Of a stretch of DNA of 64,000 nt, positions 29,900 through 43,012 are shown piece after piece. A program made the translations under genes and the position numbers. The notes beneath the pieces were generated by a model that saw only the letters and a program-made list of their open reading frames with translations, did no database searches and was not told where the DNA came from. This DNA comes from Odoribacter sp. AF15-53 (GTDB lineage: Bacteria; Bacteroidota; Bacteroidia; Bacteroidales; Marinifilaceae). The DNA is taken from the NCBI RefSeq assembly GCF_003479425.1, contig NZ_QUHC01000004.1:378880-442879 (forward strand), given 5' to 3'. Each line of letters opens with the position of its first letter. The stretch's first letter is position 1.

Positions 29900-30196
29900 T
29901 CCTGATTTTATTTGCGAGGGACAAAGGTAATGAATTTTAGATTCTAAATTTTAGATTTTAGATAAAAGTGGGAGATTGATGCGCGTTTTCGGGATAAAAC
30001 CGGGGTAATCCTCTCTCTCGATGCTTTCAGGATGCATGCCGCATCCTTGTTGCTATATTGGGAATCGGTGATACAACGAAGAGGAAAGGACGGGGGAAGG
30101 AAGAGGGGAGATTATTACCTTGGAATTTCTTCGGAAATACGGTGGGAATAGACTAGAGCTTCCCGTGATTCTCCCTATATTTTCCCCGCTCCATCG

Positions 30197-30300
30197 CTTA
30201 CATCTCTTCGTTATCTCTGGCTTATAGTTTCGTTATCTCTTCCTTCTATAGAAGGGGTATTTGACGATGTTATAAGGAATACATAACGAAGAGATGTGAG
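30197..30300. repeat. Inverted repeat upstream of the capsule promoter
   Basis: Arms 30197-30214 and 30283-30300 match over 17 of 18 bases (core ACATCTCTTCGTTAT / ATAACGAAGAGATGT), with 68 bp between them; further partial copies (CGTTATCTCTTCC at 30231, ACAACGAAGAGG near 30073) lie close by. The 29940-30534 gap otherwise holds only a TAGATTTTAGATT repeat at 29938-29966 and the promoter described next. Whether the segment inverts is not visible; no complete promoter lies between the arms. Confidence 0.6.
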
Positions 30301-30356
30301 CTTAACTATTGGGTAAATATGGATTTGTCGTTTTTTGAAAAAAAGAGTGCGAAAAA

Positions 30357-30495: not shown

Positions 30496-30537
30496 AGGCG
30501 CAGCTTTGTTCGATAATGAATAAATAAAAATTGTGTG

Positions 30538-31062
30538 ATGCTTAAATTATCTGATAATGAGCTACGTTGGTACGTTGCAAATACTTGTCGTCAGGAAAAA
30601 AAGATAAAACAGAGGTTAAATACCATGGGGATTGAGAATTTCATCCCGTTTCAGCAAATTGCGAGAAAAATTCATGGAGTTGATAAATTAATTGAAGTAC
30701 CGGTTATTCCTAATCTGGTGTTTATTCATACAACTTTGAAGACATGCATGTCTTTAATTCAGGATTACGCTTTTGACATGCGGTATTTAAGGGATCGGGA
30801 GACCGGGAATTTTTTGATCGTTCCCGATAAGCAGATGAATGATTTCATGTTCCTGCTTGATTTCTCGAAAGAGATGGTCGAGGTGGTGAACGAGAATTTG
30901 AAAAAAGGTGATAAGGTACGTGTTATAAAGGGTGATTTCGCCGGGATTGAAGGCGAATTAGTCCGCGTGAAAGGGCATAAAAGGGTGGTTGTAAGGCTGG
31001 AAGGAGTCGTGTCTCTGGCTACAGCATATATTCCTGGTAGTTTTCTGGAAAAGATAGAATAA
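30538..31062 (+). CDS. UpxY-family transcription antiterminator (NusG paralogue)
   Basis: 174 aa from ATG 30538 (a GTG codon directly before it is possible). Residues 5-105 are the NusG N-terminal domain (WYVANTCRQEKKIKQRLNTMGIENFIP) and residues about 120-170 a KOW domain (KGDKVRVIKGDFAGIEGELV). In Bacteroides, each capsule operon begins with its own UpxY, which binds RNA polymerase and lets it pass the leader into the long operon. Position and size fit exactly; the operon that follows extends to 43.0 kb. Confidence 0.92.
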   Translation: MLKLSDNELRWYVANTCRQEKKIKQRLNTMGIENFIPFQQIARKIHGVDKLIEVPVIPNLVFIHTTLKTCMSLIQDYAFDMRYLRDRETGNFLIVPDKQMNDFMFLLDFSKEMVEVVNENLKKGDKVRVIKGDFAGIEGELVRVKGHKRVVVRLEGVVSLATAYIPGSFLEKIE

Positions 31063-31065
31063 AGA

Positions 31066-31797
31066 ATGAAGAATAATTTTTTTCATGACTTGTACATGAC
31101 CATTCGGGAAGTACGAGTAAGGGATTGTTCTGCAAAGTCGTTGTCTCATTTGCTGCATGGCTATTTATCCGTGTACGCTATGGTGCGAATCTCTCCCGGC
31201 TTGGAAAGTGAGTATGGAACTTTGCACGAGATTCACGGGCGGTTGCGAGAGATAGCGGGGGAGTTGTCTAAAGCGGCAAAAGATACTTCTGTTGAACAGG
31301 ATGAACGAATCGGGTATATTGCCGATCTGATGGATGCTTACCAGACTTACTCGGATATGGATTTGTTGGATGAGGCGTTGGATATGGCTTATCAGGTATT
31401 ATCGGTGGATGAGAATGAGGTGATTGTGTTACCGGGTAAAACTCCTAACGTGTGCCGTTTGCTTTGTAATTGGTATTATTTCACGGGAGAAGAGAGAGGT
31501 TTGATGTTAGTGGAAGAGGTAATTAATGATAACGTGAGGGGGAAAAATTTGTTAAACTGGTTGCGAGCGATTGAGAACTTTGGAAAATTGGCTGAGAGTG
31601 GTGTTGTTGTCAAGATGTGGGAGGAGGCTTGTAAACAGGAGAAAGAACAGTTAGAATATGAAGTTATTCATTCTATAACGAGTGGGGAGAGTGAGGGTGT
31701 AGATTGTGAAATTTATTATTTTGAAGTGTTGGCTATGCGGGAATATGAGTTTTTTACTTTATGTGAGCGAAAGGGTTTATTAGGAGATATCCAATAA
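31066..31797 (+). CDS. Unknown helical protein at the UpxZ position
   Basis: 243 aa, nearly all helical, acidic, no membrane segment. Only 3 bp follow the upxY stop codon, so the two are co-translated. In Bacteroides the gene in this slot is UpxZ (about 160 aa), which blocks the UpxY proteins of other capsule loci; I see no clear UpxZ similarity and this protein is longer, with a TPR-like pattern (DLMDAYQTYSDMDLLDEALDMAYQVL at about 88-113). It may be a family-specific equivalent. Composition still resembles the host, unlike the genes that follow. Confidence 0.65.
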   Translation: MKNNFFHDLYMTIREVRVRDCSAKSLSHLLHGYLSVYAMVRISPGLESEYGTLHEIHGRLREIAGELSKAAKDTSVEQDERIGYIADLMDAYQTYSDMDLLDEALDMAYQVLSVDENEVIVLPGKTPNVCRLLCNWYYFTGEERGLMLVEEVINDNVRGKNLLNWLRAIENFGKLAESGVVVKMWEEACKQEKEQLEYEVIHSITSGESEGVDCEIYYFEVLAMREYEFFTLCERKGLLGDIQ

Positions 31798-31928: not shown

Positions 31929-33290
31929 ATGCCTGTGATTGATAAAAGAGCCAATAGGTTGCTCTATGGAATAGATTATCTTTTAATTAAAAGTGTTTCG
32001 TTTGTCTTGTGGATAATACGCTATAGTTTACCAACTAAATGGTCTGAGCTTATTTCTAAAGAAGATCGACATATAAATGTGTTGAATAATGTTGTTGGCT
32101 TGACATTTTTTAATGCATTAGGTGGAATGTTACTTCTTTTTACGCAAATCAAATTAGCAAATTATATGGGAGCAGCGCTTTATGGTATTTATTCTTATTA
32201 TCTTGCATTAGGAGAGGTCGGTGCTAATGTAGTGCGTTATGGGCGTGATAAAACAATGTTACGAGAATTAGTACAAAAGCCTGAGGAACAACCTTCACTA
32301 ATCACACATACTTTTATATTAGGGTTGATTAATCTGTCAATTTTCATGATATTGGTGATTATTTTTCACGAATCTCTTGATGTTGTATTTTCACTATCGA
32401 CTTTATTATTAATTTTATCTCCTTGTTTGATTTCATTAGATTTTCAGCCTGTTTATGAGTCGCTTAGTATGATGAGCTGGCATTCCATATATTACTTCTT
32501 ACAAAAAATTTTATTTTTGTTTTGTGTATGGGGTTTGTTGATTTCTGATATTCCAGTTTCCTTGTTTGGCATAGCTTTTATTCTATTCATATCGTGGATA
32601 TTTGTTTTGTTTCTTCAATATAGGGAAATAACATCCCAATTAGGAATTCGTATATTTCGTTCTTTACGATGGAAGAATTTACTTGGACTCTATCGACAAG
32701 GTTTTTTTATTGCGCTGAGTTGTTTGTTAAGTGTTGCTTTTGGACCGTTGATAAGATTGGTACTTAATATGTATGTAGATTCATATGCTGTGGGTGTGTA
32801 TGCTGCTGGATTACAAATATATTCTATTGGGTTATTTTTATTATTACAAATAGGGCGAGTTGGGAATCCGATGATGGCAGAATTAGGAAAGAATAGTAGT
32901 GAGAGAGAAAAAAGATGTTTGTTCGTACGTCGTTATTTATTAATTATGATTGCGTGTGTGTTACCATTTTCTATTGCTCTTTTCTTTTTTCCTGATACGA
33001 TAGTTTGTTCTCTTTTCACTTCAGAGTATGTGGAACTTTCTTCAATGTTACCGATATTTGCAATTTATCTTCTTGTATATTCTATAGGGAATGTGTTTAT
33101 TCAATTTTTAATTGCATTTAGAAAAGATAAAATTTATTTCACAATTTTTTCGATAGGGGCAATTCTTACAGTATTATTTGCTTTTATATTAATACCTTCC
33201 TATGGTGTTATAGGGGCGACATTGGCTTTATGTGTACCTCACGGACTTACATGCTTGGCTTATTGTATTTTTTCCTTGAAATATTTGTAA
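31929..33290 (+). CDS. Oligosaccharide flippase, Wzx type
   Basis: 453 aa with about 12-14 membrane helices and the usual MOP-superfamily layout (NNVVGLTFFNALGGMLLLFTQIKLANYMG near residue 56; ASLAF-like GVIGATLALCVPHG near the C-terminus). It would move lipid-linked repeat units to the periplasmic face. First gene of the AT-rich core of the locus; codon use shifts sharply to A/T endings here. Confidence 0.87.
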   Translation: MPVIDKRANRLLYGIDYLLIKSVSFVLWIIRYSLPTKWSELISKEDRHINVLNNVVGLTFFNALGGMLLLFTQIKLANYMGAALYGIYSYYLALGEVGANVVRYGRDKTMLRELVQKPEEQPSLITHTFILGLINLSIFMILVIIFHESLDVVFSLSTLLLILSPCLISLDFQPVYESLSMMSWHSIYYFLQKILFLFCVWGLLISDIPVSLFGIAFILFISWIFVLFLQYREITSQLGIRIFRSLRWKNLLGLYRQGFFIALSCLLSVAFGPLIRLVLNMYVDSYAVGVYAAGLQIYSIGLFLLLQIGRVGNPMMAELGKNSSEREKRCLFVRRYLLIMIACVLPFSIALFFFPDTIVCSLFTSEYVELSSMLPIFAIYLLVYSIGNVFIQFLIAFRKDKIYFTIFSIGAILTVLFAFILIPSYGVIGATLALCVPHGLTCLAYCIFSLKYL

Positions 33291-33295
33291 CATAA

Positions 33296-34543
33296 ATGAA
33301 AAGGAAATTGATATTTGTGTTGATGATAACAATATATCGTGTATTGTTAGATTCATTATATATTACTGCTATTTCTCCATTTTTTAGTTATGATAGTTTA
33401 ATTATAAATAGAAATGATAGTGTTTACATTGCTTCTTGGGGAATACTTTGGGCTTTTACATGGCTTGTGTATCCATTTTTGAAAAAAGATGCTAATTTTA
33501 CATCTTTTGTTGTGGTTATGTTGTTTCTGCTCAAGGTCATTCCTTTTACATCATTCATTGCATGTAATGCTCAACCTTGGGATTTTATTCTTCTACAAAC
33601 TATTTATTGGTTTCTTATTTTTGTCTTACTTAGGCTTGTACCACCATTTAGAATTCCTAACCTTGGTAGAAATACTTTATTTATAGATGTGGTTACCTTT
33701 ATTTTTATAGTTGTTATCTTTTTTTTATCAGGATACTACGCTCATTTTCGTTTACATTTTTCACTAATGGATGTCTATGATTTGCGTACGGAAGCACGAG
33801 GTTATGATATTCCAGTTATATTGGGATATATTCATAGTGCTGCGGCTAAAGTGCTTCCTTTATTATTGATCTTCTATATTGGACAAAAGAAAAAAGTTAT
33901 TGTGTTATTTATTATTATGGCAATACTTTTAAGTTTTGGTGTCAATGGAATGAAATCAACATTTTTAAATTTATTTTTTTGTTTAGGGCTTTATTACCTA
34001 CATTCTAAATGTTTATTATCTAAATTATCAATAGGATTACTTTCTCTCTGTATAATAGCTCTATTTGAATTTTCATTTATGGGGAGTTATTTCATTTCAG
34101 ATATTCTAATACGTAGAATACTTTATATACCATCATTATTAGATACATATTACTATAATTATACTCTTGAACATGGTCCTCTTTATTTTAATGCAATAGT
34201 AAATAAAATGGATATAGCCTATGTTATAGGTAGTTTTTGGCGTACAAGTCGAACCTGTGCAAATAATGGATTATTTTCTGATGCTTATGTAAATCTTGGT
34301 GTTTTTGGGGTATTTATATATCCTTTTATTTATACTATTTTTTTTAAGTATGCTGAGTCTATATTTAGGGGAAAAGATTATGGGATTACCTTCTATGCGG
34401 CTTTTATTGTTACATATAATATGATTAGTTCTTTTTTTACTGTTTGTTTATTAACTCATGGTATGTTTATTTTATGTTTTGTTGTAATGTTTATGCCTAA
34501 TATGACAAGTACTTCACAATACAAAATAGGATCTCGTCTGTGA
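33296..34543 (+). CDS. Candidate polysaccharide polymerase (Wzy)
   Basis: 415 aa, 10-12 hydrophobic helices with one large extracytoplasmic loop, and no sequence motif, which is normal for Wzy proteins. It follows Wzx after 5 bp. Because a polymerase is required and no other multi-membrane protein is present, Wzy is the natural assignment, but it rests on topology and position only. Confidence 0.68.
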   Translation: MKRKLIFVLMITIYRVLLDSLYITAISPFFSYDSLIINRNDSVYIASWGILWAFTWLVYPFLKKDANFTSFVVVMLFLLKVIPFTSFIACNAQPWDFILLQTIYWFLIFVLLRLVPPFRIPNLGRNTLFIDVVTFIFIVVIFFLSGYYAHFRLHFSLMDVYDLRTEARGYDIPVILGYIHSAAAKVLPLLLIFYIGQKKKVIVLFIIMAILLSFGVNGMKSTFLNLFFCLGLYYLHSKCLLSKLSIGLLSLCIIALFEFSFMGSYFISDILIRRILYIPSLLDTYYYNYTLEHGPLYFNAIVNKMDIAYVIGSFWRTSRTCANNGLFSDAYVNLGVFGVFIYPFIYTIFFKYAESIFRGKDYGITFYAAFIVTYNMISSFFTVCLLTHGMFILCFVVMFMPNMTSTSQYKIGSRL

Positions 34544-34660: not shown

Positions 34661-35638
34661 ATGAAATTCAGTAGAGTTATAAAAAGTATACGTGGTAATA
34701 AAGTAACTAGAACTTTAGCGTACCCTTTAGATTTGATATGTCATCACGTGTTAGCTCACATTACTGCAGCACATCCATATAGATATCCAGCACATAATCA
34801 TAAATGGGTTTATGGAAGAAGAATGGATTTGGAGAATCCGATATCATTGCATGAAAAAATATATTGGATGTTATATTGTACAGATACGTCAATATGGACA
34901 GAACTGACAGATAAAGTGAAAGTTCGGAGTTATATAGCACGAATGGGATATGGAAATATCTTGAATAAAGTTTATGCAACATATGATAGCCTTCCTGATA
35001 TGAATACATTGTTTGCAAATGCGCCTAGATCATTTGTGGTGAAAACAAACCATTGTGGAGGAGGTGAAGGTGTTTATCTTGTTAAAAACAAGGAGGCTGT
35101 AAATAAAAAACGAATTTATTCGGGTTTAAAAAGAGTCATGAAGGATAAATATGGAGTTCGTACAGGTCAACCTCATTATGTAGGAATTAAACCGCAAATC
35201 ATTGTTGAAAGGTATTTAATTAATGAGGTGGATCCGACAAAAGCGTTACCTGATTATAAATTTTTTTGTTTTAATGGAGAACCACGTTTGATTAATCTTG
35301 TTGGGAATAGGAGTATTGAAGAACATACATACCTTGACCATTATTATACAATGTCATGGGAACGTATTGTTTATAAGGAAGATGAAAGTCAAGATTTTCC
35401 TAGACCAAAATCATTTGACGAGATGGTTCAGATAGCACGAAAATTATCTTCTCCCTTTCCTTTTGTGCGGCTTGATTTTTATGAAGTTGGGGGAAAGCCA
35501 ATTTTTGGAGAGATGACTTTTACTCCTGGATTCGACACGTTTTGTGGAACTTATGGTGATAAAATCTTGAAACTAGGAAATTGGGTTGATTTATCAGAAA
35601 CTAAGAAAATTAGAGAACTAAATCCCAAATTTTATTGA
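34661..35638 (+). CDS. TupA-like ATP-grasp protein
   Basis: 325 aa. Recognised from the family layout: an N-terminal helical part with HKWVYGRRMDLENPISLHEKIYWM (about 47-70), a lysine-rich nucleotide site FVVKTNHCGGGEGVYLVKNK (about 124-143), DYKFFCFNGEP (about 203-213) and a metal-binding ending RLDFYEVGGKPIFGEMTFTPG (about 269-289). TupA-type ATP-grasp proteins occur in capsule and teichuronopeptide loci, where they are thought to form amide bonds with acidic polymers. Here it may amidate the uronic acid or lactyl carboxyl of the repeat unit (inference). 117 bp precede it, so a separate start of translation is likely. Confidence 0.82.
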   Translation: MKFSRVIKSIRGNKVTRTLAYPLDLICHHVLAHITAAHPYRYPAHNHKWVYGRRMDLENPISLHEKIYWMLYCTDTSIWTELTDKVKVRSYIARMGYGNILNKVYATYDSLPDMNTLFANAPRSFVVKTNHCGGGEGVYLVKNKEAVNKKRIYSGLKRVMKDKYGVRTGQPHYVGIKPQIIVERYLINEVDPTKALPDYKFFCFNGEPRLINLVGNRSIEEHTYLDHYYTMSWERIVYKEDESQDFPRPKSFDEMVQIARKLSSPFPFVRLDFYEVGGKPIFGEMTFTPGFDTFCGTYGDKILKLGNWVDLSETKKIRELNPKFY

Positions 35639-35691: not shown

Positions 35692-36540
35692 ATGAAAATA
35701 TATAATGAAATAGATTTGTATCGGTATAATACAATGAAATTACATTCTATCGCTAGGATAATGTATGAACCGGAAAATGTAGACGAATTGCTGGCTATTT
35801 TTCGAAAATTAAAAAAAGAAGGTACTGCATTTTATTTGTTATCTGCAGGAAGTAATATCGTTTTTGGAGCTAGAATTGAACGTCCTATAGTATATTTAAT
35901 GTCCTTCAATACAAATATGTCATTTTGTGAGGATGGTACATTGGAATGTGGTGCATCTGTACGAATTCAATCTTTACTTGAAAAAATAAAGGAATTTTCT
36001 TTAGGAGGTATTGAATATCTTGCTTCAGTACCATCAAGTGTGGGGGGAGCTGTATACATGAATGCAGGGAGAGGACGAAAAATGAAACGTTCTATTTCAG
36101 ACTATATTGAATCTGTGAGGTATTTGGACTTTGCTGATATGCAGATAAAAAATATGTATGGGAATGATAGATATTTATATCGGACTTCTCCTTTTCAAAA
36201 CTTAAATACGGTTATTTTGAGTGTAAGATTTAAATTTATCAAACAAGATGTTGATATAACTAACAGATTGATTAAGGAAAGATTGGCTTATTCTCAAAGA
36301 TATTTGTCTGCAGATAAACCAAGTTGTGGATCTGTATTCTGTCTCATGAATCCAGTGATTATGAGATTACTTAGAGGTACAAGATATGGTGGTGCCATTT
36401 TTTCAAAAAAAACATCTAATTGGATATCAAATATTGATAATGCTAAAGTAGGAGATATAGAGGCTTTGATAGGGAAGGCTATTAGATGGCATAAAGTGTT
36501 CTTTTCAAAATATAAAGTAGAAATTCGATTCTTCAGGTAA
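35692..36540 (+). CDS. MurB-like FAD-dependent enolpyruvyl-sugar reductase in a capsule locus
   Basis: 282 aa MurB homologue. FAD-binding LSAGSNIVFG (50-59), the VPSSVGGAVYMNAG loop (113-126), the substrate/proton relay YRTS (163-166), the catalytic serine Ser214 in CGSVF, GGAIFSKKTSNWISN (233-247) and a terminal catalytic Glu277 in KVEIRFF are all in MurB order. Genuine MurB reduces UDP-GlcNAc-enolpyruvate to UDP-MurNAc for peptidoglycan. The C-terminal domain here is shorter and the usual FKNP and HxNFI motifs are altered, so the substrate may differ. Placement inside an AT-rich capsule operon suggests a lactyl-ether sugar in the polysaccharide rather than a cell wall role. No MurA homologue is in the window. 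Confidence 0.85.
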   Translation: MKIYNEIDLYRYNTMKLHSIARIMYEPENVDELLAIFRKLKKEGTAFYLLSAGSNIVFGARIERPIVYLMSFNTNMSFCEDGTLECGASVRIQSLLEKIKEFSLGGIEYLASVPSSVGGAVYMNAGRGRKMKRSISDYIESVRYLDFADMQIKNMYGNDRYLYRTSPFQNLNTVILSVRFKFIKQDVDITNRLIKERLAYSQRYLSADKPSCGSVFCLMNPVIMRLLRGTRYGGAIFSKKTSNWISNIDNAKVGDIEALIGKAIRWHKVFFSKYKVEIRFFR

Positions 36541-36541
36541 G

Positions 36542-37705
36542 ATGCATGTACTTCATATTGTAGATTCATATGGGGGAACAGAGGTGTATAAAAATCTTTT
36601 TATGGCATTAGATAGTTTAGGTATAAAACAAACTATTTTTGTTCCTCTTAATGCTAGTAATCATAATAGAATAGGAAATCATTTGATTGATTTTCAGGTA
36701 TCAGGATCAAAAATTATTTATTCCACAGCATTAACGTCTTATCATAAATTCTTGTATCAATTTAAAATCTCTACGATTTTAAAGGCGATAACTTCTTCTA
36801 TTAACATTGATGAAATAGATTTAATTCATGCAGCAACCCTTTGTGTAAATGGAGCTGTCGCTTATGAATTGAATAAACGATATAGAATACCTTATATCTG
36901 TGCTGTTAGGAACACTGATATGGAATTGTATTATAAATATTTTCGTTGGCGTATAAATTATTTTTTTAAAATATTTAAAGGAGCTTCCCAAGTGATATTT
37001 ATTTGTCCACAATATCAAAAAAAGTTTGTTCAAGAAAGAATCCCCTTTGTTTATAAAAAAGATGCTGAAAAAAAGGTGATGATTATTCCTAATGGGGTTG
37101 ATCCTTTGTTCCTAAATGATAGAGTATTTTGTTCCCCAAATTTATCCGGGGCAATACATGTTATTTTTGCTTCTGCTTTTGTTAAAGGGAAAGGGCTCAA
37201 GGAAATTATTTTGGCTATCGCTATGCTTAGAGATAAAGGATATAATATTGATATTAAAGCAGTGGGTAGAGGTTTGCCTTTTAGAAATGAAAATAAAAAA
37301 TACCTTCAAGAGATAGAAACAATTGCTAATCAATATGATTGGGTATATTTAGAGAATTACATGAATAAGCGAGATTTGAAAATGTTATTTCGGGGAAGTC
37401 ATATTTTCGTTATGCCTTCAAAGCCAGAAACATTTGGACTTGTTTATGTTGAGGCTTTGACTCAAAATTTGCCTATTGTATATGCCAAAGGACAAGGATT
37501 TGATGGGTATTTTTCTGAAGGCTATATTGGGTATCATGTGGAAGCCTTTAATGTTGTAGATATTGCCAATAAAATAGAATTGATTATTACAGAATATAAC
37601 GATATTGTAGAACGTATTGCAAGAATTGATCTAAAAGAGCAATTTAGTTGGGGTGAAATTGCCCAAAAGTATTATAATATATACAAGAGTATAGTTGGAA
37701 AATGA
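36542..37705 (+). CDS. Glycosyltransferase family 4
   Basis: 387 aa GT-B fold enzyme. It begins with MHVLHIVDSYGGTEVYKNL (acceptor domain, glycine loop), and the C-terminal donor domain has IIPNGVDPLF (about 181-190), VMPSKPETFGLVYVEALTQNLPIVY (about 293-317) with the EX7E-like pair typical of GT4. Adds one sugar to the lipid-linked repeat unit with retention. Starts one base after the MurB-like gene and overlaps the next by 4 bp. Confidence 0.88.
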   Translation: MHVLHIVDSYGGTEVYKNLFMALDSLGIKQTIFVPLNASNHNRIGNHLIDFQVSGSKIIYSTALTSYHKFLYQFKISTILKAITSSINIDEIDLIHAATLCVNGAVAYELNKRYRIPYICAVRNTDMELYYKYFRWRINYFFKIFKGASQVIFICPQYQKKFVQERIPFVYKKDAEKKVMIIPNGVDPLFLNDRVFCSPNLSGAIHVIFASAFVKGKGLKEIILAIAMLRDKGYNIDIKAVGRGLPFRNENKKYLQEIETIANQYDWVYLENYMNKRDLKMLFRGSHIFVMPSKPETFGLVYVEALTQNLPIVYAKGQGFDGYFSEGYIGYHVEAFNVVDIANKIELIITEYNDIVERIARIDLKEQFSWGEIAQKYYNIYKSIVGK

Positions 37706-38817
37706 AAAAAATAGCATTATTGTCATTTCATAATGCAGCTAACTATGGGGCTGCACTTCAAGCTTTTGCCTTACAAGAGGCTTTGACTCGAAAGGGATAT
37801 GTTTGTGAATATATTGATTATCGGAATACGTATCGAAGTAACGCTTACAATATGAGTTATCATATTTGGAGTAACCTAAAAGCGAGAAAATTGAAATCAG
37901 CTTTTCTTTATTTTTTAGGAACGCCTTTTATGTGTTTACGTAAATACCGATTTAATAAATTTTATCGTAGATATTTACATTGCACAACTTCTATTTATCA
38001 CTCATCAACAGAAGCAAGAGTGTTAAATGATAAATATGATAAATTTATTGTTGGTAGTGATCAAGTATGGAATTACGAAAATAATGGTCGAGATTTTGCT
38101 TTTTTGTTAGATTTTGTTACTGATGATGAAAAAAAAATTTCTTATTCATCAAGTTTTGGATTAAGCTCTGTTCCTAAGGAATTACGCAAGGAGTACGAGT
38201 ATAATCTTTTGAAAATAAAACATATTTCGGTTCGAGAACGTTATGCTGTAGATTTAGTTCGAGAACTATCAGGTCGGTGTGCCGAATTGGTTTTAGACCC
38301 AGTCTTCTTATTAACTAGAGAGGAGTGGCAACAATTTTTATTAAATCGTCCCCGTAGTAAGTATATATTTACTTATACGAATCGACCAGGACAGGTAGAG
38401 CGATTTTTTAATCAAACAGGCTATGATATACAGTATTTTAAACATTATAAATTGGCCCGGGCAACATCTTTGTTAGATTTCTTATCTGGTCATACTTGTG
38501 TAAAGTATGCGATGTCTCCATCAGAATTTGTTAGTTGTATAAATTATGCGCAACTCGTTGTATCGGCTTCATTCCATTGTATTGCATTGTCGATTATTCT
38601 TAACAAACCATTTGTAGCTATTCTTACAGGTGATATAGGAAAAGACGAGAGAATATTGAGTATATTACAACTGCTTGGTTTACAAAATCGTATATATTCC
38701 CCGTCGATGACATTAGAAGAAATAAATCTTCCGATTAATTATAAGAGTGTAAATGAAGAGATCTCTAGATTACGGAAGGATTCATTTCAATTTCTTATTA
38801 ATAGTATAGAAAAATAA
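37702..38817 (+). CDS. Polysaccharide pyruvyl transferase family protein
   Basis: 371 aa, GT-B-like PS_pyruv_trans family. Recognised from the start LLSFHNAANYGAALQAFALQ, FIVGSDQVWNY (about 114-124), KKISYSSSFG, a VRERYAVDLV and DPVFLL core, and VVSASFHCIALSIILNKPF (about 287-305). These enzymes use PEP to place a pyruvate ketal on a hexose, giving a negative charge, as WcfO does in Bacteroides fragilis PSA. Overlaps the GT4 gene by 4 bp. Confidence 0.85.
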   Translation: MKKIALLSFHNAANYGAALQAFALQEALTRKGYVCEYIDYRNTYRSNAYNMSYHIWSNLKARKLKSAFLYFLGTPFMCLRKYRFNKFYRRYLHCTTSIYHSSTEARVLNDKYDKFIVGSDQVWNYENNGRDFAFLLDFVTDDEKKISYSSSFGLSSVPKELRKEYEYNLLKIKHISVRERYAVDLVRELSGRCAELVLDPVFLLTREEWQQFLLNRPRSKYIFTYTNRPGQVERFFNQTGYDIQYFKHYKLARATSLLDFLSGHTCVKYAMSPSEFVSCINYAQLVVSASFHCIALSIILNKPFVAILTGDIGKDERILSILQLLGLQNRIYSPSMTLEEINLPINYKSVNEEISRLRKDSFQFLINSIEK

Positions 38818-38829
38818 TAAATTAAATTT

Positions 38830-40104
38830 ATGAATGAAATAAAAATTGCTGTAATCGGTCTCGGTTATGTTGGGTTACCTTTGGCTCGTCTTTTTTCAAC
38901 TAAGTATTTAACTGTTGGTTTCGATATGAATCAAAAGCGCGTAGATACTTTGATGGCAGGACATGATGTGACGTTCGAGGTGGCGGATGATTTATTACAA
39001 GATGCTATCCATAATCATGGTTTTAAGTGTACGACTAGTATTGATGAAATTAGTGATTGTAATTTTTATATAGTTGCCGTTCCAACTCCTGTAGATGAGA
39101 ATAATCGTCCTGATCTAAAACCTTTGTGGGGTGCAAGTGAAATAGTTGGAAAAGTTATTTCAAAAGGAGATATAGTGGTATATGAGTCAACCGTATATCC
39201 GGGGGTCACAGAAGAAGAATGTTTACCCGTAGTGGAACGGGTATCAGGATTAGAGTTCAATAAAGATTTCTTTGCTGGTTATAGTCCAGAACGGATTAAT
39301 CCTGGAGATAAGGAACATACTGTAGAAAAAATTAAGAAAGTTACATCGGGATCTACTCCTGAGATTGCAGAGGTTGTTGATAAGATTTATAATTCTGTAC
39401 TTGTAAACGGAACTCATAGAGCTTCTTCTATTAAAGTTGCCGAAGCTTCTAAGATAATTGAAAATTCGCAGCGTGATGTTAATATTGCTTTTATGAACGA
39501 ATTGGCAAAAATTTTTAATGCGATGGAGATTGATACTCACGATGTAATTGATGCTGCTTCTAGTAAGTGGAATTTTATAAAATTAAGCCCAGGGCTTGTA
39601 GGTGGACATTGTATAAGTGTTGATCCGTATTATTTGATTCAGAAAGCTCAGGTTTATGGTGTTTTACCTCGAGTTATGTCAAATGCTCGTCGTTTGAATG
39701 ATGGTATGGGGGCATACGTGGCGAACCAAACTATTAAATGCATGAACAAAAAAGGAGTAATAGTAAAGGATTCTAAAATTTTGATTCTTGGTATTACATT
39801 TAAGGAAAATTGTCCTGATATTCGTAATACGAAAATCGTTGACATTTATCATACATTCGAGGAGTATACGAATAATATTACTATTTATGATCCGTGGGCA
39901 GATATTGATGCTGTTCGTCATGAATATGGTCTTGAAATAATTAATGTTCTTTCAGGTAGAGAGAAATATGATTCTATTATTCTTGCAGTTGCTCATGATG
40001 AGTTTCTAAATCTTGATATCCGCTCTTTTCTATCGTCAGAAAAGGGTGTTGTTTATGATGTGAAAGGTATTCTTCCTAGAAAAATTGTTGATGCAAGATT
40101 ATAA
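38830..40104 (+). CDS. UDP-N-acetylhexosamine 6-dehydrogenase (WbpA/WbpO/TviB type)
   Basis: 424 aa three-domain nucleotide sugar dehydrogenase. NAD-binding AVIGLGYVGLPLA (about 7-19), VAVPTPVD, the ESTVYPGVTEE segment, the catalytic Cys261 in GGHCISVDPYYL, and LGITFKENCPDIRNTK (about 318-333). It oxidises UDP-HexNAc at C6 twice to the uronic acid; the GlcNAc/GalNAc choice cannot be fixed. It gives the repeat unit a carboxylate, a possible target of the ATP-grasp protein. Confidence 0.93.
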   Translation: MNEIKIAVIGLGYVGLPLARLFSTKYLTVGFDMNQKRVDTLMAGHDVTFEVADDLLQDAIHNHGFKCTTSIDEISDCNFYIVAVPTPVDENNRPDLKPLWGASEIVGKVISKGDIVVYESTVYPGVTEEECLPVVERVSGLEFNKDFFAGYSPERINPGDKEHTVEKIKKVTSGSTPEIAEVVDKIYNSVLVNGTHRASSIKVAEASKIIENSQRDVNIAFMNELAKIFNAMEIDTHDVIDAASSKWNFIKLSPGLVGGHCISVDPYYLIQKAQVYGVLPRVMSNARRLNDGMGAYVANQTIKCMNKKGVIVKDSKILILGITFKENCPDIRNTKIVDIYHTFEEYTNNITIYDPWADIDAVRHEYGLEIINVLSGREKYDSIILAVAHDEFLNLDIRSFLSSEKGVVYDVKGILPRKIVDARL

Positions 40105-40107
40105 GTA

Positions 40108-41118
40108 ATGATGTTATCTATTGTTTGCCCGATATACAATGAAGTGGGGTATATTAAAGGGTGTATAGAGTCAATTGTAGCACAGGATTATCCTAAAGAT
40201 AGTTTGGAAGTATTGTTTGTTGATGGGATGAGTTCAGATGGAACTCGTGATGTTGTACGAAAATTTATTTCTTTATATCCTTTCATTAAATTATTAGATA
40301 ATCCTAAAAAAATTACTCCAGCTGCTTTAAATATAGGAATTAATGCTGCAAAAGGTTCGATTATTTTTCGTTTAGATGCACATGCTATTTATCCTAATAA
40401 TTATTTCTCTATATTGGTTAAATATCTTGAAGAGTTGAGAGCAGATAATGTTGGTGGTATATGTAGAACACTACCTGTTAATAATACGAATGTTTGTGTT
40501 GCAATTGCTTGTGCTTTAAGTAGTCCTTTCGGTATGGGAAACTCCTATTTTAGGATAGGAATAAAAGATGTAAAAAAAGTAGATACGGTGCCTTTTGGTT
40601 GTTTTAGAAAGGAAATATTTGATAAAGTAGGACTTTTTGATGAAGAATTAATTCGTAATCAAGATGACGAATTTAATGGGCGGATAATTAAAGAAGGTGG
40701 TTGTATTTATTTAATACCAGAGGTTATTATAGATTATTATGCTCGAGATTCGATAAAAAAAGTGATAAAAATGTTTTATCAATATGGGTTATTTAAACCA
40801 TTAGTAAATATAAAGTTGAGAAAACCTACTACTATTCGACAATTTTTTCCAGTATTATTTGTTATTGGTTTAATTGTAGGTGGAGCGTTAAGTATATTTA
40901 CTTCATTGGTATATATTTATATTTTAGTGTTGGGGTTATATTGGTGTCTCGCATTTTATTTTGCATTGAGTAATGTGCGGAAAATAAAGCGATTAGGAGG
41001 AGTGATACTCTTACCTTTTATATTTTTCATGATACATGTTAGTTATGGTTGGGGATATTTAGTCGGAATTTTTAAGGTAATTTTTAAAAGTTCCTTTTCT
41101 GTGGTAAGTAATAGATAA
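40108..41118 (+). CDS. Glycosyltransferase family 2, ExoA-like
   Basis: 336 aa. GT-A domain with IVCPIYNEVGYIKGCIESI (start), VDGMSSDGTRDVV, FRLDAHAIYP carrying the DxD-like metal site (about 90-95), and a final QDDEFNGR acceptor-site motif. About three membrane helices after residue 245 anchor it, as in ExoA of succinoglycan synthesis. Begins 3 bp after the dehydrogenase. It is the last gene of the AT-rich core; the codon style changes within the following 95-bp gap. Confidence 0.9.
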   Translation: MMLSIVCPIYNEVGYIKGCIESIVAQDYPKDSLEVLFVDGMSSDGTRDVVRKFISLYPFIKLLDNPKKITPAALNIGINAAKGSIIFRLDAHAIYPNNYFSILVKYLEELRADNVGGICRTLPVNNTNVCVAIACALSSPFGMGNSYFRIGIKDVKKVDTVPFGCFRKEIFDKVGLFDEELIRNQDDEFNGRIIKEGGCIYLIPEVIIDYYARDSIKKVIKMFYQYGLFKPLVNIKLRKPTTIRQFFPVLFVIGLIVGGALSIFTSLVYIYILVLGLYWCLAFYFALSNVRKIKRLGGVILLPFIFFMIHVSYGWGYLVGIFKVIFKSSFSVVSNR

Positions 41119-41213: not shown

Positions 41214-42428
41214 ATGATACCATTTTCACCACCAAGAATTGACCAGAAGGTCATTGATGAGGTTGTTGATACCTTGAAGTCCGGTTGGATCACGACGGGA
41301 CCGAAGACGAAGGAGTTTGAACGGAGGTTGACGGCGTATTGCGGGAATAAGGCGACGTTGGCTGTAAACTCGAATACAGTGGGGTTGGAAGTTGTGTTGC
41401 GGTGGTTCGGGGTACAGGAGGGGGACGAGGTGATTGTGCCTGCCTATACGTATTGTGCCACTGCGAACGTGATCGTGCATTGTGGGGCGAAACCTGTTAT
41501 GGTTGATGTGAATGCGGAAGATTTTGATGTTTGCTTGGAGAATGTGCGGAAGGCGATTACGGATAAGACAAAAGTGATTATGCCTGTTGATTTGGGTGGG
41601 ATGCCTTGTGATTATGATGAATTGTTTGAATTGGTGAAATCGGGGTCGGTGAATTCGTTGTTTCAGGCAAGAACGGAGGAGCAGGAGAAGTTGGGACGGA
41701 TTTTGATTTTGTCGGATTCGGCTCATTCCGTGGGGGCGGAGTATAAGGGGCGAAAAGCGGGATGTTTGGCGGATGTTTCCGTGTTTTCTTTCCATGCGGT
41801 GAAGAATTTGACCACGGCGGAAGGAGGGGCGATTATGTTGAATTTGCCGGAGCCTTTTGATAACGAGGAGGTGTATCGTTATTTGTGTACATATACTTTG
41901 CACGGGCAGAATAAGGATGCGTTGGCCAAGACGAAAAAGGGGGCGTGGCGTTATGATGTACTGGTTTCCGGTTTTAAGGGGAATATGACGGATATAATGG
42001 CTTCTATCGGGTTGGTGGAGTTGTCGCGGTATGAGGATGATACTTTGCATTATCGGAAATGTATATATGATCAGTATACGGAGGCTTTTTCCAAGTATGA
42101 GTGGGCACAATTACCAGTTTATGAAACGGAAGACCGGAAGAGTTCTTATCACGTGTATTGTTTACGGATAAAAGGGATCACGGAGCAACAGCGGGATGAG
42201 ATTATTCAGAAAATTTTCGATAGGGATGTTGCGGTTAATGTACATTTTCAGCCGTTACCTTTGTTGAGTGCGTTTAAGAATAAAGGATATAAAATAGAAG
42301 ATTACCCGGTGGCTTACGATAATTATAGCCGTGAGATTTCTTTACCCGTGTGGTATGGGTTGAATGAGGAGATGGTGAAGACGGTTATTGATGCTGTCGT
42401 GTGTTCTGTGGAGGAAGTGTTGGCGTGA
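41214..42428 (+). CDS. DegT/DnrJ-family sugar aminotransferase, WcfR-like
   Basis: 404 aa PLP aminotransferase. The PLP lysine is Lys197 in SFHAVKNLTTAEGGA, and the start SPPRIDQKVIDEVVDTLKSGWITTGP is standard. In Bacteroides fragilis PSA the paired genes wcfR and wcfS make UDP-AATGal (a 4-amino-trideoxyhexose) and load it on the lipid carrier; here the same pair stands at the 3' end of the operon. The needed 4,6-dehydratase is not in the window and may be encoded elsewhere. Base composition is host-like (GC-richer than the preceding nine genes). Confidence 0.9.
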   Translation: MIPFSPPRIDQKVIDEVVDTLKSGWITTGPKTKEFERRLTAYCGNKATLAVNSNTVGLEVVLRWFGVQEGDEVIVPAYTYCATANVIVHCGAKPVMVDVNAEDFDVCLENVRKAITDKTKVIMPVDLGGMPCDYDELFELVKSGSVNSLFQARTEEQEKLGRILILSDSAHSVGAEYKGRKAGCLADVSVFSFHAVKNLTTAEGGAIMLNLPEPFDNEEVYRYLCTYTLHGQNKDALAKTKKGAWRYDVLVSGFKGNMTDIMASIGLVELSRYEDDTLHYRKCIYDQYTEAFSKYEWAQLPVYETEDRKSSYHVYCLRIKGITEQQRDEIIQKIFDRDVAVNVHFQPLPLLSAFKNKGYKIEDYPVAYDNYSREISLPVWYGLNEEMVKTVIDAVVCSVEEVLA

Positions 42429-43012
42429 TACGTTTTTGTGATATTTTCTTTTCTTTGTTGGGATTGATAGTTCTATCACCCGTTTTCGTGATTATTGCTT
42501 TGTGTATTGTGTCGGATAGCCGGGGTGGTGTATTTTACCGTCAGGTACGAGTGGGGCGGGAGGGTAAGGATTTTCGGTTGTTTAAATTCCGATCAATGGC
42601 GAGTGGGGCGGATAAGAAAGGTTTGATAACCGTGGGGGCAAAGGATTCACGGGTTACCCGGGTCGGGTATTTTTTGAGAAAGTATAAATTGGATGAATTA
42701 CCGCAATTGCTGAACGTGGTGCGGGGGGAGATGAGTTTGGTGGGACCGAGGCCGGAGGTGAGGAAGTACGTGGATATGTATACTGTTGAGCAGCGTAAGG
42801 TGCTGGCGGTTGTTCCCGGTATCACGGATTATGCTTCTATCGAGTACGTGGATGAAAATGTTATTTTAGGACAGGCAAATGATCCGGATCAGGCTTACGT
42901 GGAACAGATTATGCCGGATAAGATACGATATAACATGAAATATATAGATAATCGGTGTTTGAAAGAGTATTTTAAGATTATATTTTTGACGTTGATGAAG
43001 ATCGTGAAGTAG
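42425..43012 (+). CDS. Initiating sugar-phosphate transferase, WcfS/PglC-like
   Basis: 195 aa from GTG 42425, which overlaps the aminotransferase stop by 4 bp (GTGA); the open frame upstream is not used. One membrane hairpin near residues 5-28, then the family core KFRSM, LRKYKLDELPQLLNVVRGEMSLVGPRPE (about 90-117). It transfers a sugar phosphate to undecaprenyl phosphate and thus starts the repeat unit, probably with the aminotransferase product. Confidence 0.92.
   Translation: MIRFCDIFFSLLGLIVLSPVFVIIALCIVSDSRGGVFYRQVRVGREGKDFRLFKFRSMASGADKKGLITVGAKDSRVTRVGYFLRKYKLDELPQLLNVVRGEMSLVGPRPEVRKYVDMYTVEQRKVLAVVPGITDYASIEYVDENVILGQANDPDQAYVEQIMPDKIRYNMKYIDNRCLKEYFKIIFLTLMKIVK

Follow-up and report, generated by a model that had tools for sequence, protein, structure and literature searches.

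A MurB-like gene (35692..36540, + strand) stands in a capsule operon of the window, the whole 64-kb stretch of DNA that was analysed, together with a gene of Pfam family PF04230. From the comparisons described below, we put at about 0.78 the probability that the PF04230 protein makes an enolpyruvyl ether of a capsule sugar, and that the MurB-like protein reduces this product to an O-lactyl ether. The partner of the MurB-like protein is likely to be the PF04230 enzyme encoded at 37702-38817, and not MurA. Capsules and O-antigens of various bacteria contain lactyl (1-carboxyethyl) ethers, and in the literature searched, which took in few subscription journals, we found neither an enzymatic route to them outside peptidoglycan nor an earlier proposal of a route through PF04230 and MurB. 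We know of no assay for any enzyme of a PF04230-MurB module, and of no structure for the capsule of this locus. If the proposal is correct, capsule biosynthesis has re-created a reaction of the peptidoglycan pathway by means of another transferase, a lactyl ether would be predictable from gene content, and some genes now annotated as polysaccharide pyruvyl transferase or UDP-N-acetylmuramate dehydrogenase are misnamed.

The MurB-like gene and its capsule operon

The operon is tight, and all of its genes named here are on the + strand. At its head are putative UpxY- and UpxZ-like regulators (30535..31797), followed by two membrane proteins: a probable Wzx-like flippase (31929..33290), with a weak match to the NCBIfam HfsF model (28.7 bits, far below the cut-off), and a probable Wzy-like repeat-unit polymerase (33296..34543), named from its position and hydrophobicity and without a Pfam match. 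Next come a TupA-like ATP-grasp protein (34661..35638; PF14305, 120 bits), the MurB-like protein of 282 aa, which on its fold, residues and context is a proposed FAD ene-reductase of enolpyruvyl ethers, a GT4 glycosyltransferase (36542..37705), and the PF04230 polysaccharide pyruvyl transferase of 371 aa (37702..38817; Pfam, 123.9 bits), which is the proposed enolpyruvyl transferase from PEP. The remaining genes encode a TviB-like UDP-N-acetylhexosamine 6-dehydrogenase (38830..40104; NCBIfam PRK15182, 526 bits against a cut-off of 592), a GT2 glycosyltransferase (40108..41118), a DegT-family sugar aminotransferase (41214..42428) and an initiating sugar-phosphate transferase (Bac_transf; 42401..43012). 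When 10 capsule ORFs were scanned for PF00275 (EPSP synthase/MurA), no match was obtained.

Some features of the operon lie to one side of this argument. The TupA-like protein may, speculatively, amidate a carboxyl group; it is also encoded at locus L115 (121.7 bits), and none was seen by eye among the ORFs and annotations of L001, L116 (7 kb only) and L109. Locus L115, in genome G797, agrees with the window at ∼95% in the right part of the capsule locus, and the genes at the flippase position differ when compared by eye (31929-33290 and L115:4441-7049), which looks like an exchange of the left part between the two. Upstream of the operon, at 30196-30301, there is a 53-nt imperfect palindrome, 74% complementary and without a spacer.

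A MurB-type FAD site and catalytic residues inside a capsule operon had been reported by a sequence-only reading of the window, and this description is confirmed. The protein is a flavoprotein of MurB fold, it carries SAGSN at 51-55, and R164, S214 and E277 line up with the catalytic residues of canonical MurB. A different fold, considered because the MurB_C score is below the Pfam cut-off, was rejected once the MurB fold was found. To compare residues, 34 sequences of the stand-alone MurB-like family were aligned with 76 canonical type II MurBs and with 39 MurB domains that are fused to PF04230. In the stand-alone set, R164 is present in 34/34, S214 in 29/34 (Thr in the other 5) and E277 in 32/34 (2 gaps). 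Other positions differ from the canonical enzymes: position 127 is Ala in 70/76 canonical and Arg in 34/34 stand-alone sequences, position 128 is Tyr in 63/76 and Gly in 34/34, position 241 is His in 76/76 and Thr in 32/34, and position 244 is Phe in 76/76 and Trp in 33/34. The protein of the window itself has R127, G128 and T241. The fused domains have T127 in 38/39, N128 in 26/39 and Q241 in 33/39, while keeping the canonical F244 in 39/39, Y128 in 7/39 and H241 in 5/39. We read the retained catalytic residues and the changes at 127, 128, 241 and 244 as the same chemistry on a new substrate; A127, Y128 and H241 of canonical MurB are presumably substrate-binding positions.

The sequence-only reading had also taken the gene for a paralogue, which would not hold if the genome possessed no other murB. 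Several homologues are annotated as UDP-N-acetylmuramate dehydrogenase, and the protein scores below the curated cut-off of all seven NCBIfam MurB models that it matches (130.1 against 259, and 112.8 against 144.5). The relative with the most similar cassette found is G797, in which the MurB-like, GT4, PF04230 and dehydrogenase proteins are 95.7, 94.8, 94.6 and 96.2% identical to those of the window. This genome has a canonical murB (104.1 bits) and a separate paralogue (23 bits, under the MurB_C cut-off). Within the family of G107, to which the secA DNA of the window is 76% identical, a MurB_C match was found in 52 of the 56 genomes, and two matches in G797 only. One DoxX-family protein encoded in the window shares 89-90% identity with Butyricimonas proteins that carry a species name. 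Prevotella G001 likewise contains both a canonical murB (105.9 bits) and the paralogue (33.8 bits). The search for a second murB, run on these two relatives, thus favors a paralogue, as do the pocket changes; identity with the cell-wall MurB was considered and, on the separate canonical gene in G797, set aside as improbable. The protein of the window differs from type II MurB (S. aureus, Listeria) in the replacement of positions 127, 128 and 241, in falling below the equivalog cut-offs, in being encoded among capsule genes that include a PF04230 partner, and in not being the sole MurB in G797 and G001.

Distribution, phylogeny and the PF04230 partner

A protein search with the MurB-like sequence gave 1443 matches with an E value of 0.001 or less; among these, the 120 matches listed were 46-95% identical, and those with names include Bacteroides uniformis, Desulfobacter hydrogenophilus, Bacteroidales and Rikenellaceae. 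The stand-alone family is rare in sampled reference genomes. Family-like scores were obtained in 1/393 (order), 2/398 (genus), 1/56 (G107 family), 1/399 (family) and 1/395 (phylum), in samples that overlap and that count the central genome, G001, in four of the five; besides G001, they add only G488 and G797. Such scattered occurrence fits an accessory capsule gene. Scanning genome contigs with the protein alone gave no relative, and scanning with the alignment gave one close relative, L001 (52%), among the best 80 of 587 candidates; the rest of these 80 were 25-34% identical and were taken for canonical MurBs, except L046. Five loci accordingly make up all the genomic context for the stand-alone clade. 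No relative of the MurB-like protein turned up when viral contigs were scanned. Three Bacteroidales sequences (L046, L082 and L083) are distant and type II-like and fall outside the stand-alone clade, and no PF04230-like ORF was seen in the short contigs examined for them.

A tree was built from 71 of 113 rows, comprising 18/18 stand-alone proteins, 12/39 PF04230-MurB fusions, 35/40 canonical type II MurBs and 6/12 Bacteroidales type I MurBs; the 40 canonical rows had been sampled by taking alternate members of 77 candidates and adding the E. faecalis MurB, and the 12 type I rows by taking alternate members of 23. It leaves out L026, L071, L006, L002 and L046 (type II), as well as L082, L083, P0283 (without a PF04230 match) and P0288 (a MurB-ligase fusion). 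The stand-alone family, Cetobacterium included, forms one clade (18 rows, 100/100) that lies apart from the Bacteroidales type I MurB. The fused MurB domains form another (12 rows, 100/100) and group with three Lactobacillales MurBs (100/99), the stand-alone family being placed elsewhere. A single clade of stand-alone and fused proteins is absent from the best tree, and with an AU p of 0.157 a single origin is not rejected. The separate clades suggest two recruitments of MurB to PF04230, and evidence from the fused proteins is therefore used here as analogy.

The PF04230 gene lies two genes downstream of the MurB-like gene, with the GT4 gene between them. In the five loci that were read, homologues of the MurB-like, GT4, PF04230 and UDP-HexNAc dehydrogenase genes occur together without exception (5/5; the GT4 homologues were found by BLAST). 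These loci represent three lineages in two phyla and are not five independent cases: the locus of the window and L115 belong to one lineage, L001 and L116 to a Prevotella lineage, and L109 is on a plasmid of Cetobacterium somerae (Fusobacteriota). Between L109 and the window, identity is 54.6% for PF04230, 50.5% for the dehydrogenase, 35.2% for the MurB-like protein and 32.7% for GT4. The gene order of the cassette varies between lineages, and the MurB-like and PF04230 genes, which in these loci are separate and never fused, are adjacent in only one of the five. At 79 other MurB loci (L002-L080; 1.23 Mb of flank, 59 with at least 3 kb on both sides), mostly Bacillota housekeeping loci and not capsule loci, a profile search found no PF04230-like ORF (0/79); the PF04230 profile, built without seeds from L122-L132, was positive in every one of those loci. 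Pyruvyltransferase genes are frequent in capsule loci, numbering 35 in the 79 Klebsiella capsule clusters according to passages of PMC4616057. Sharing one operon is consequently weak evidence, and what counts more for us is that the cassette is conserved across phyla and that the fusion exists. The PF04230 protein of the window gives a weak match to the CsaB model and is 26% identical to the N-terminal domain of the fusion protein CpsG; a PDB sequence search with it returned nothing at E 1 or better. One Prevotella locus has, besides the MurB-linked gene, a second PF04230 gene directly after a gene for an FrhB-type flavoprotein (L001:4103-6549).

The natural fusion is E. faecalis CpsG, a protein of 817 aa in which PF04230 (14-295) is joined to MurB (FAD_binding_4 at 546-673, MurB_C at 714-805). 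Its gene was read on contig L112 (OR846590.1), which, like L111 (OR846596.1), is named Enterococcus phage Efs 1-1-1. The two records hold E. faecalis chromosomal genes, namely a canonical murB and the capsule locus, and for that reason look like mislabelled host contigs. The gene order around CpsG is GT2, the 817-aa ORF, a small ORF, UDP-galactopyranose mutase (GLF), ABC ATPase and ABC permease. For V583, a table in PMC2766626 gives cpsE (GT2), cpsF, cpsG ("MurB family protein"; EF2489), cpsH (lipoprotein), cpsI (UDP-galactopyranose mutase), cpsJ (ATP-binding) and cpsK (permease). The neighbors of the 817-aa ORF match the rows of this table, with cpsF absent as in the T5 type; an E. faecalis type without cpsF is on record in PMC1899230. 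E. faecalis cpsG is thus an earlier record of a MurB-family gene among capsule genes. The E. faecalis capsule contains a lactic-acid ether shown by NMR, with Galf as the acceptor, and its known decorations are O-acetyl and the lactyl ether, with no ketal; the words MurB, cpsG and pyruvyl are absent from the paper that gives the structure.

A search with CpsG (L112:5408-7858), in which 7997 candidates were scored, yielded at least 75 proteins, with domains precomputed and ten of them rescanned. Among the 75 matches listed, PF04230 is joined to MurB in 39, to a nitroreductase in 3, to FrhB in 2 and to a thiamine enzyme in 3, and 28 have MurB without PF04230. The locus in the window is like CpsG in bringing PF04230 and MurB together in a capsule locus, in the case of CpsG one whose capsule carries a lactic-acid ether. 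It is unlike CpsG, a single fusion protein acting toward Galf, in having two separate genes, and the MurB domain of CpsG groups with Lactobacillales MurBs, whereas the MurB-like protein of the window does not.

The proposed reactions and their alternatives

In the route that we propose, PEP would supply an enolpyruvyl group that the PF04230 enzyme attaches to a single sugar hydroxyl; by then the sugar would probably form part of the lipid-linked repeat unit. Such a stage is plausible here because CsaB, an enzyme of PF04230 type, acts with PEP on a lipid-linked acceptor, although its product is a ketal. The acceptor may be an N-acetylhexuronic acid made available by the dehydrogenase (38830..40104) and the GT4 enzyme, as co-conservation of the TviB-like dehydrogenase suggests. 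The MurB-like protein would then use NAD(P)H and FAD, by MurB chemistry, to reduce the C=C of the enolpyruvyl ether, giving an O-(1-carboxyethyl) (lactyl) ether. From these comparisons we infer which sugar is the acceptor, what each of the two enzymes does, at which stage, and with what stereochemistry. The earlier suggestion of an O-lactyl ether as the product gains support from the PF04230 pairing, from the CpsG fusion, from the ether in the E. faecalis capsule, and from the E. coli O124/O164 locus and the Klebsiella K22 and K37 capsules described below. That suggestion had named as enolpyruvyl source either housekeeping MurA or another transferase; the second option stands, with PF04230 in 5/5 loci and fused to MurB in 39 of the 75 CpsG matches listed, and the first is not supported. 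We count against our reading the ketal products of the PF04230 enzymes CsaB, Pvg1p and WcfO, the GT4 gene that separates the two genes, the canonical residues that some fused domains keep, the 26% identity to the CpsG domain, two plasmid PF04230 loci at which no reductase was seen, and the pyruvyltransferase of Klebsiella K8, which comes without pyruvylation.

If MurA were the source, it would make UDP-GlcNAc-enolpyruvate, the paralogue would reduce it, and a glycosyltransferase would place UDP-MurNAc, or an isomer, in the capsule. MurA is a housekeeping enzyme, so its product would be available, and the MurB fold and catalytic residues have been retained. However, positions 127, 128 and 241 are altered in 32-34 of the 34 sequences, canonical MurB already performs the step in G797 and G001, the 10 capsule ORFs scanned contain no PF00275 whereas PF04230 is present at each of the five loci read, and the CpsG fusion makes PF04230 the natural partner on the donor side. 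We consider this route unlikely. The gene could otherwise encode a second MurB for the cell wall, either redundant or used under certain conditions, which has come to lie in a capsule operon by chance, as its fold and chemistry and the annotation of its homologues would allow; its scores under the NCBIfam cut-offs, its conservation with three capsule genes across phyla and its own clade, apart from Bacteroidales type I MurB, make this very improbable indeed.

A further alternative is that the product of the PF04230 enzyme is an ordinary pyruvate ketal and that the MurB-like protein has another substrate, for example a nucleotide sugar that it oxidizes or reduces. Cyclic pyruvate ketals are made by CsaB, Pvg1p and WcfO. 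These enzymes belong to the same Pfam family as the protein at 37702-38817, and they require no reductase, whereas the proposed partner would stop at the enolpyruvyl ether. Against a ketal stand the retention of R164, S214 and E277 in the MurB-like protein, the occurrence of the fusion where no ketal is among the known capsule decorations, and the nitroreductase or FrhB that other PF04230 relatives have in place of MurB. We hold it to be highly unlikely, and prefer the sequence of enolpyruvyl transfer and reduction.

PF04230 with other reductases and partners

The partners found with PF04230 raise the wider, tentative possibility, to which we give somewhat less than even odds, that a subclass of the family makes enolpyruvyl ethers whose fate is decided by the partner: MurB, nitroreductase or FrhB would lead to O-lactyl ethers, and a MenD-like enzyme to the 2,4-dihydroxypentanoic-acid ethers of Providencia. 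If so, lactyl-ether sugars across bacteria share one route, for which a reductase has been recruited several times. The PF04230 domain of CpsG is 48% identical to that of a nitroreductase fusion (P0284) and 71% identical to that of a thiamine-enzyme fusion (P0261), whose partner domain, the only one of its kind tested, scores as MenD (NCBIfam, 259.6 bits against a cut-off of 244.2). In P0261, P0274 and P0275, PF04230 is fused to a thiamine enzyme in place of MurB. The 2,4-dihydroxypentanoic-acid ethers reported from Providencia could be explained by a two-carbon addition to an enolpyruvyl ether.

Ten plasmid loci with PF04230 were picked by hand among the 49 + 14 records listed; for one of them, from Klebsiella aerogenes, the record showed FrhB before the choice was made. 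In 8 of these loci, PF04230 is fused to a flavin reductase or lies within two genes of one, which is MurB in Paracoccus aestuarii; nitroreductase in Gemmobacter fulvus, Paracoccus alcaliphilus, E. coli p30COLEC-2 and Lactiplantibacillus plantarum L125; and FrhB in Bacteroides finegoldii, Klebsiella aerogenes and Pseudobutyrivibrio. At the remaining two, both from L. plantarum, no reductase was found within ∼4 kb in the incomplete gene table of the collection. Overall, PF04230 fused to or near a nitroreductase or FrhB was observed in several phyla (L124:3951-6113, L125:4001-7546, L123, L126, L128, L129, L130 and L132:4769-7283), the E. coli O124/O164 O-antigen locus included.

The O124/O164 O-antigen locus of E. 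coli, present in 5 of 5426 genomes, has a gene for an FrhB flavoprotein (FrhB_FdhB) directly before PF04230. Like the locus of the window, it places PF04230 beside a flavin reductase, and it can be tied to a lactyl-ether O-antigen; its reductase is of another Pfam family, FrhB_FdhB, unlike the MurB-like protein. The Shigella dysenteriae O-antigen with a lactyl ether is that of type 3, common to E. coli O124, and the O164 O-antigen is not known to carry the lactyl group. In the text of PMC10609480, a Shigella dysenteriae O-antigen contains 4-O-[(R)-1-carboxyethyl]-D-glucose, and in that of PMC4732683, O124 and O164 are among gene clusters that are 98-99.9% identical. Among the five genomes with this locus, L132, L133 and L134 included, three have the PF04230 gene annotated as two pieces and two as a single one, a split that may bear on the difference between O124 and O164.

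Klebsiella K66 has the same carboxyethyl group as K22, and we know of no lactyl ether in Klebsiella K8. The title of a reference in PMC3857182 identifies 4-O-[(S)-1-carboxyethyl]-D-glucuronic acid in K22, and the text of that paper describes K22 and K37 as sharing their cps genes apart from an acetyltransferase difference. Passages of PMC4616057 name K8, K22, K37 and K66 as having pyruvyltransferase genes but no pyruvylated capsule, and record a nitroreductase twice and an F420 hydrogenase once in the 79 clusters. Our guess is that the two nitroreductases belong to K22 and K37.
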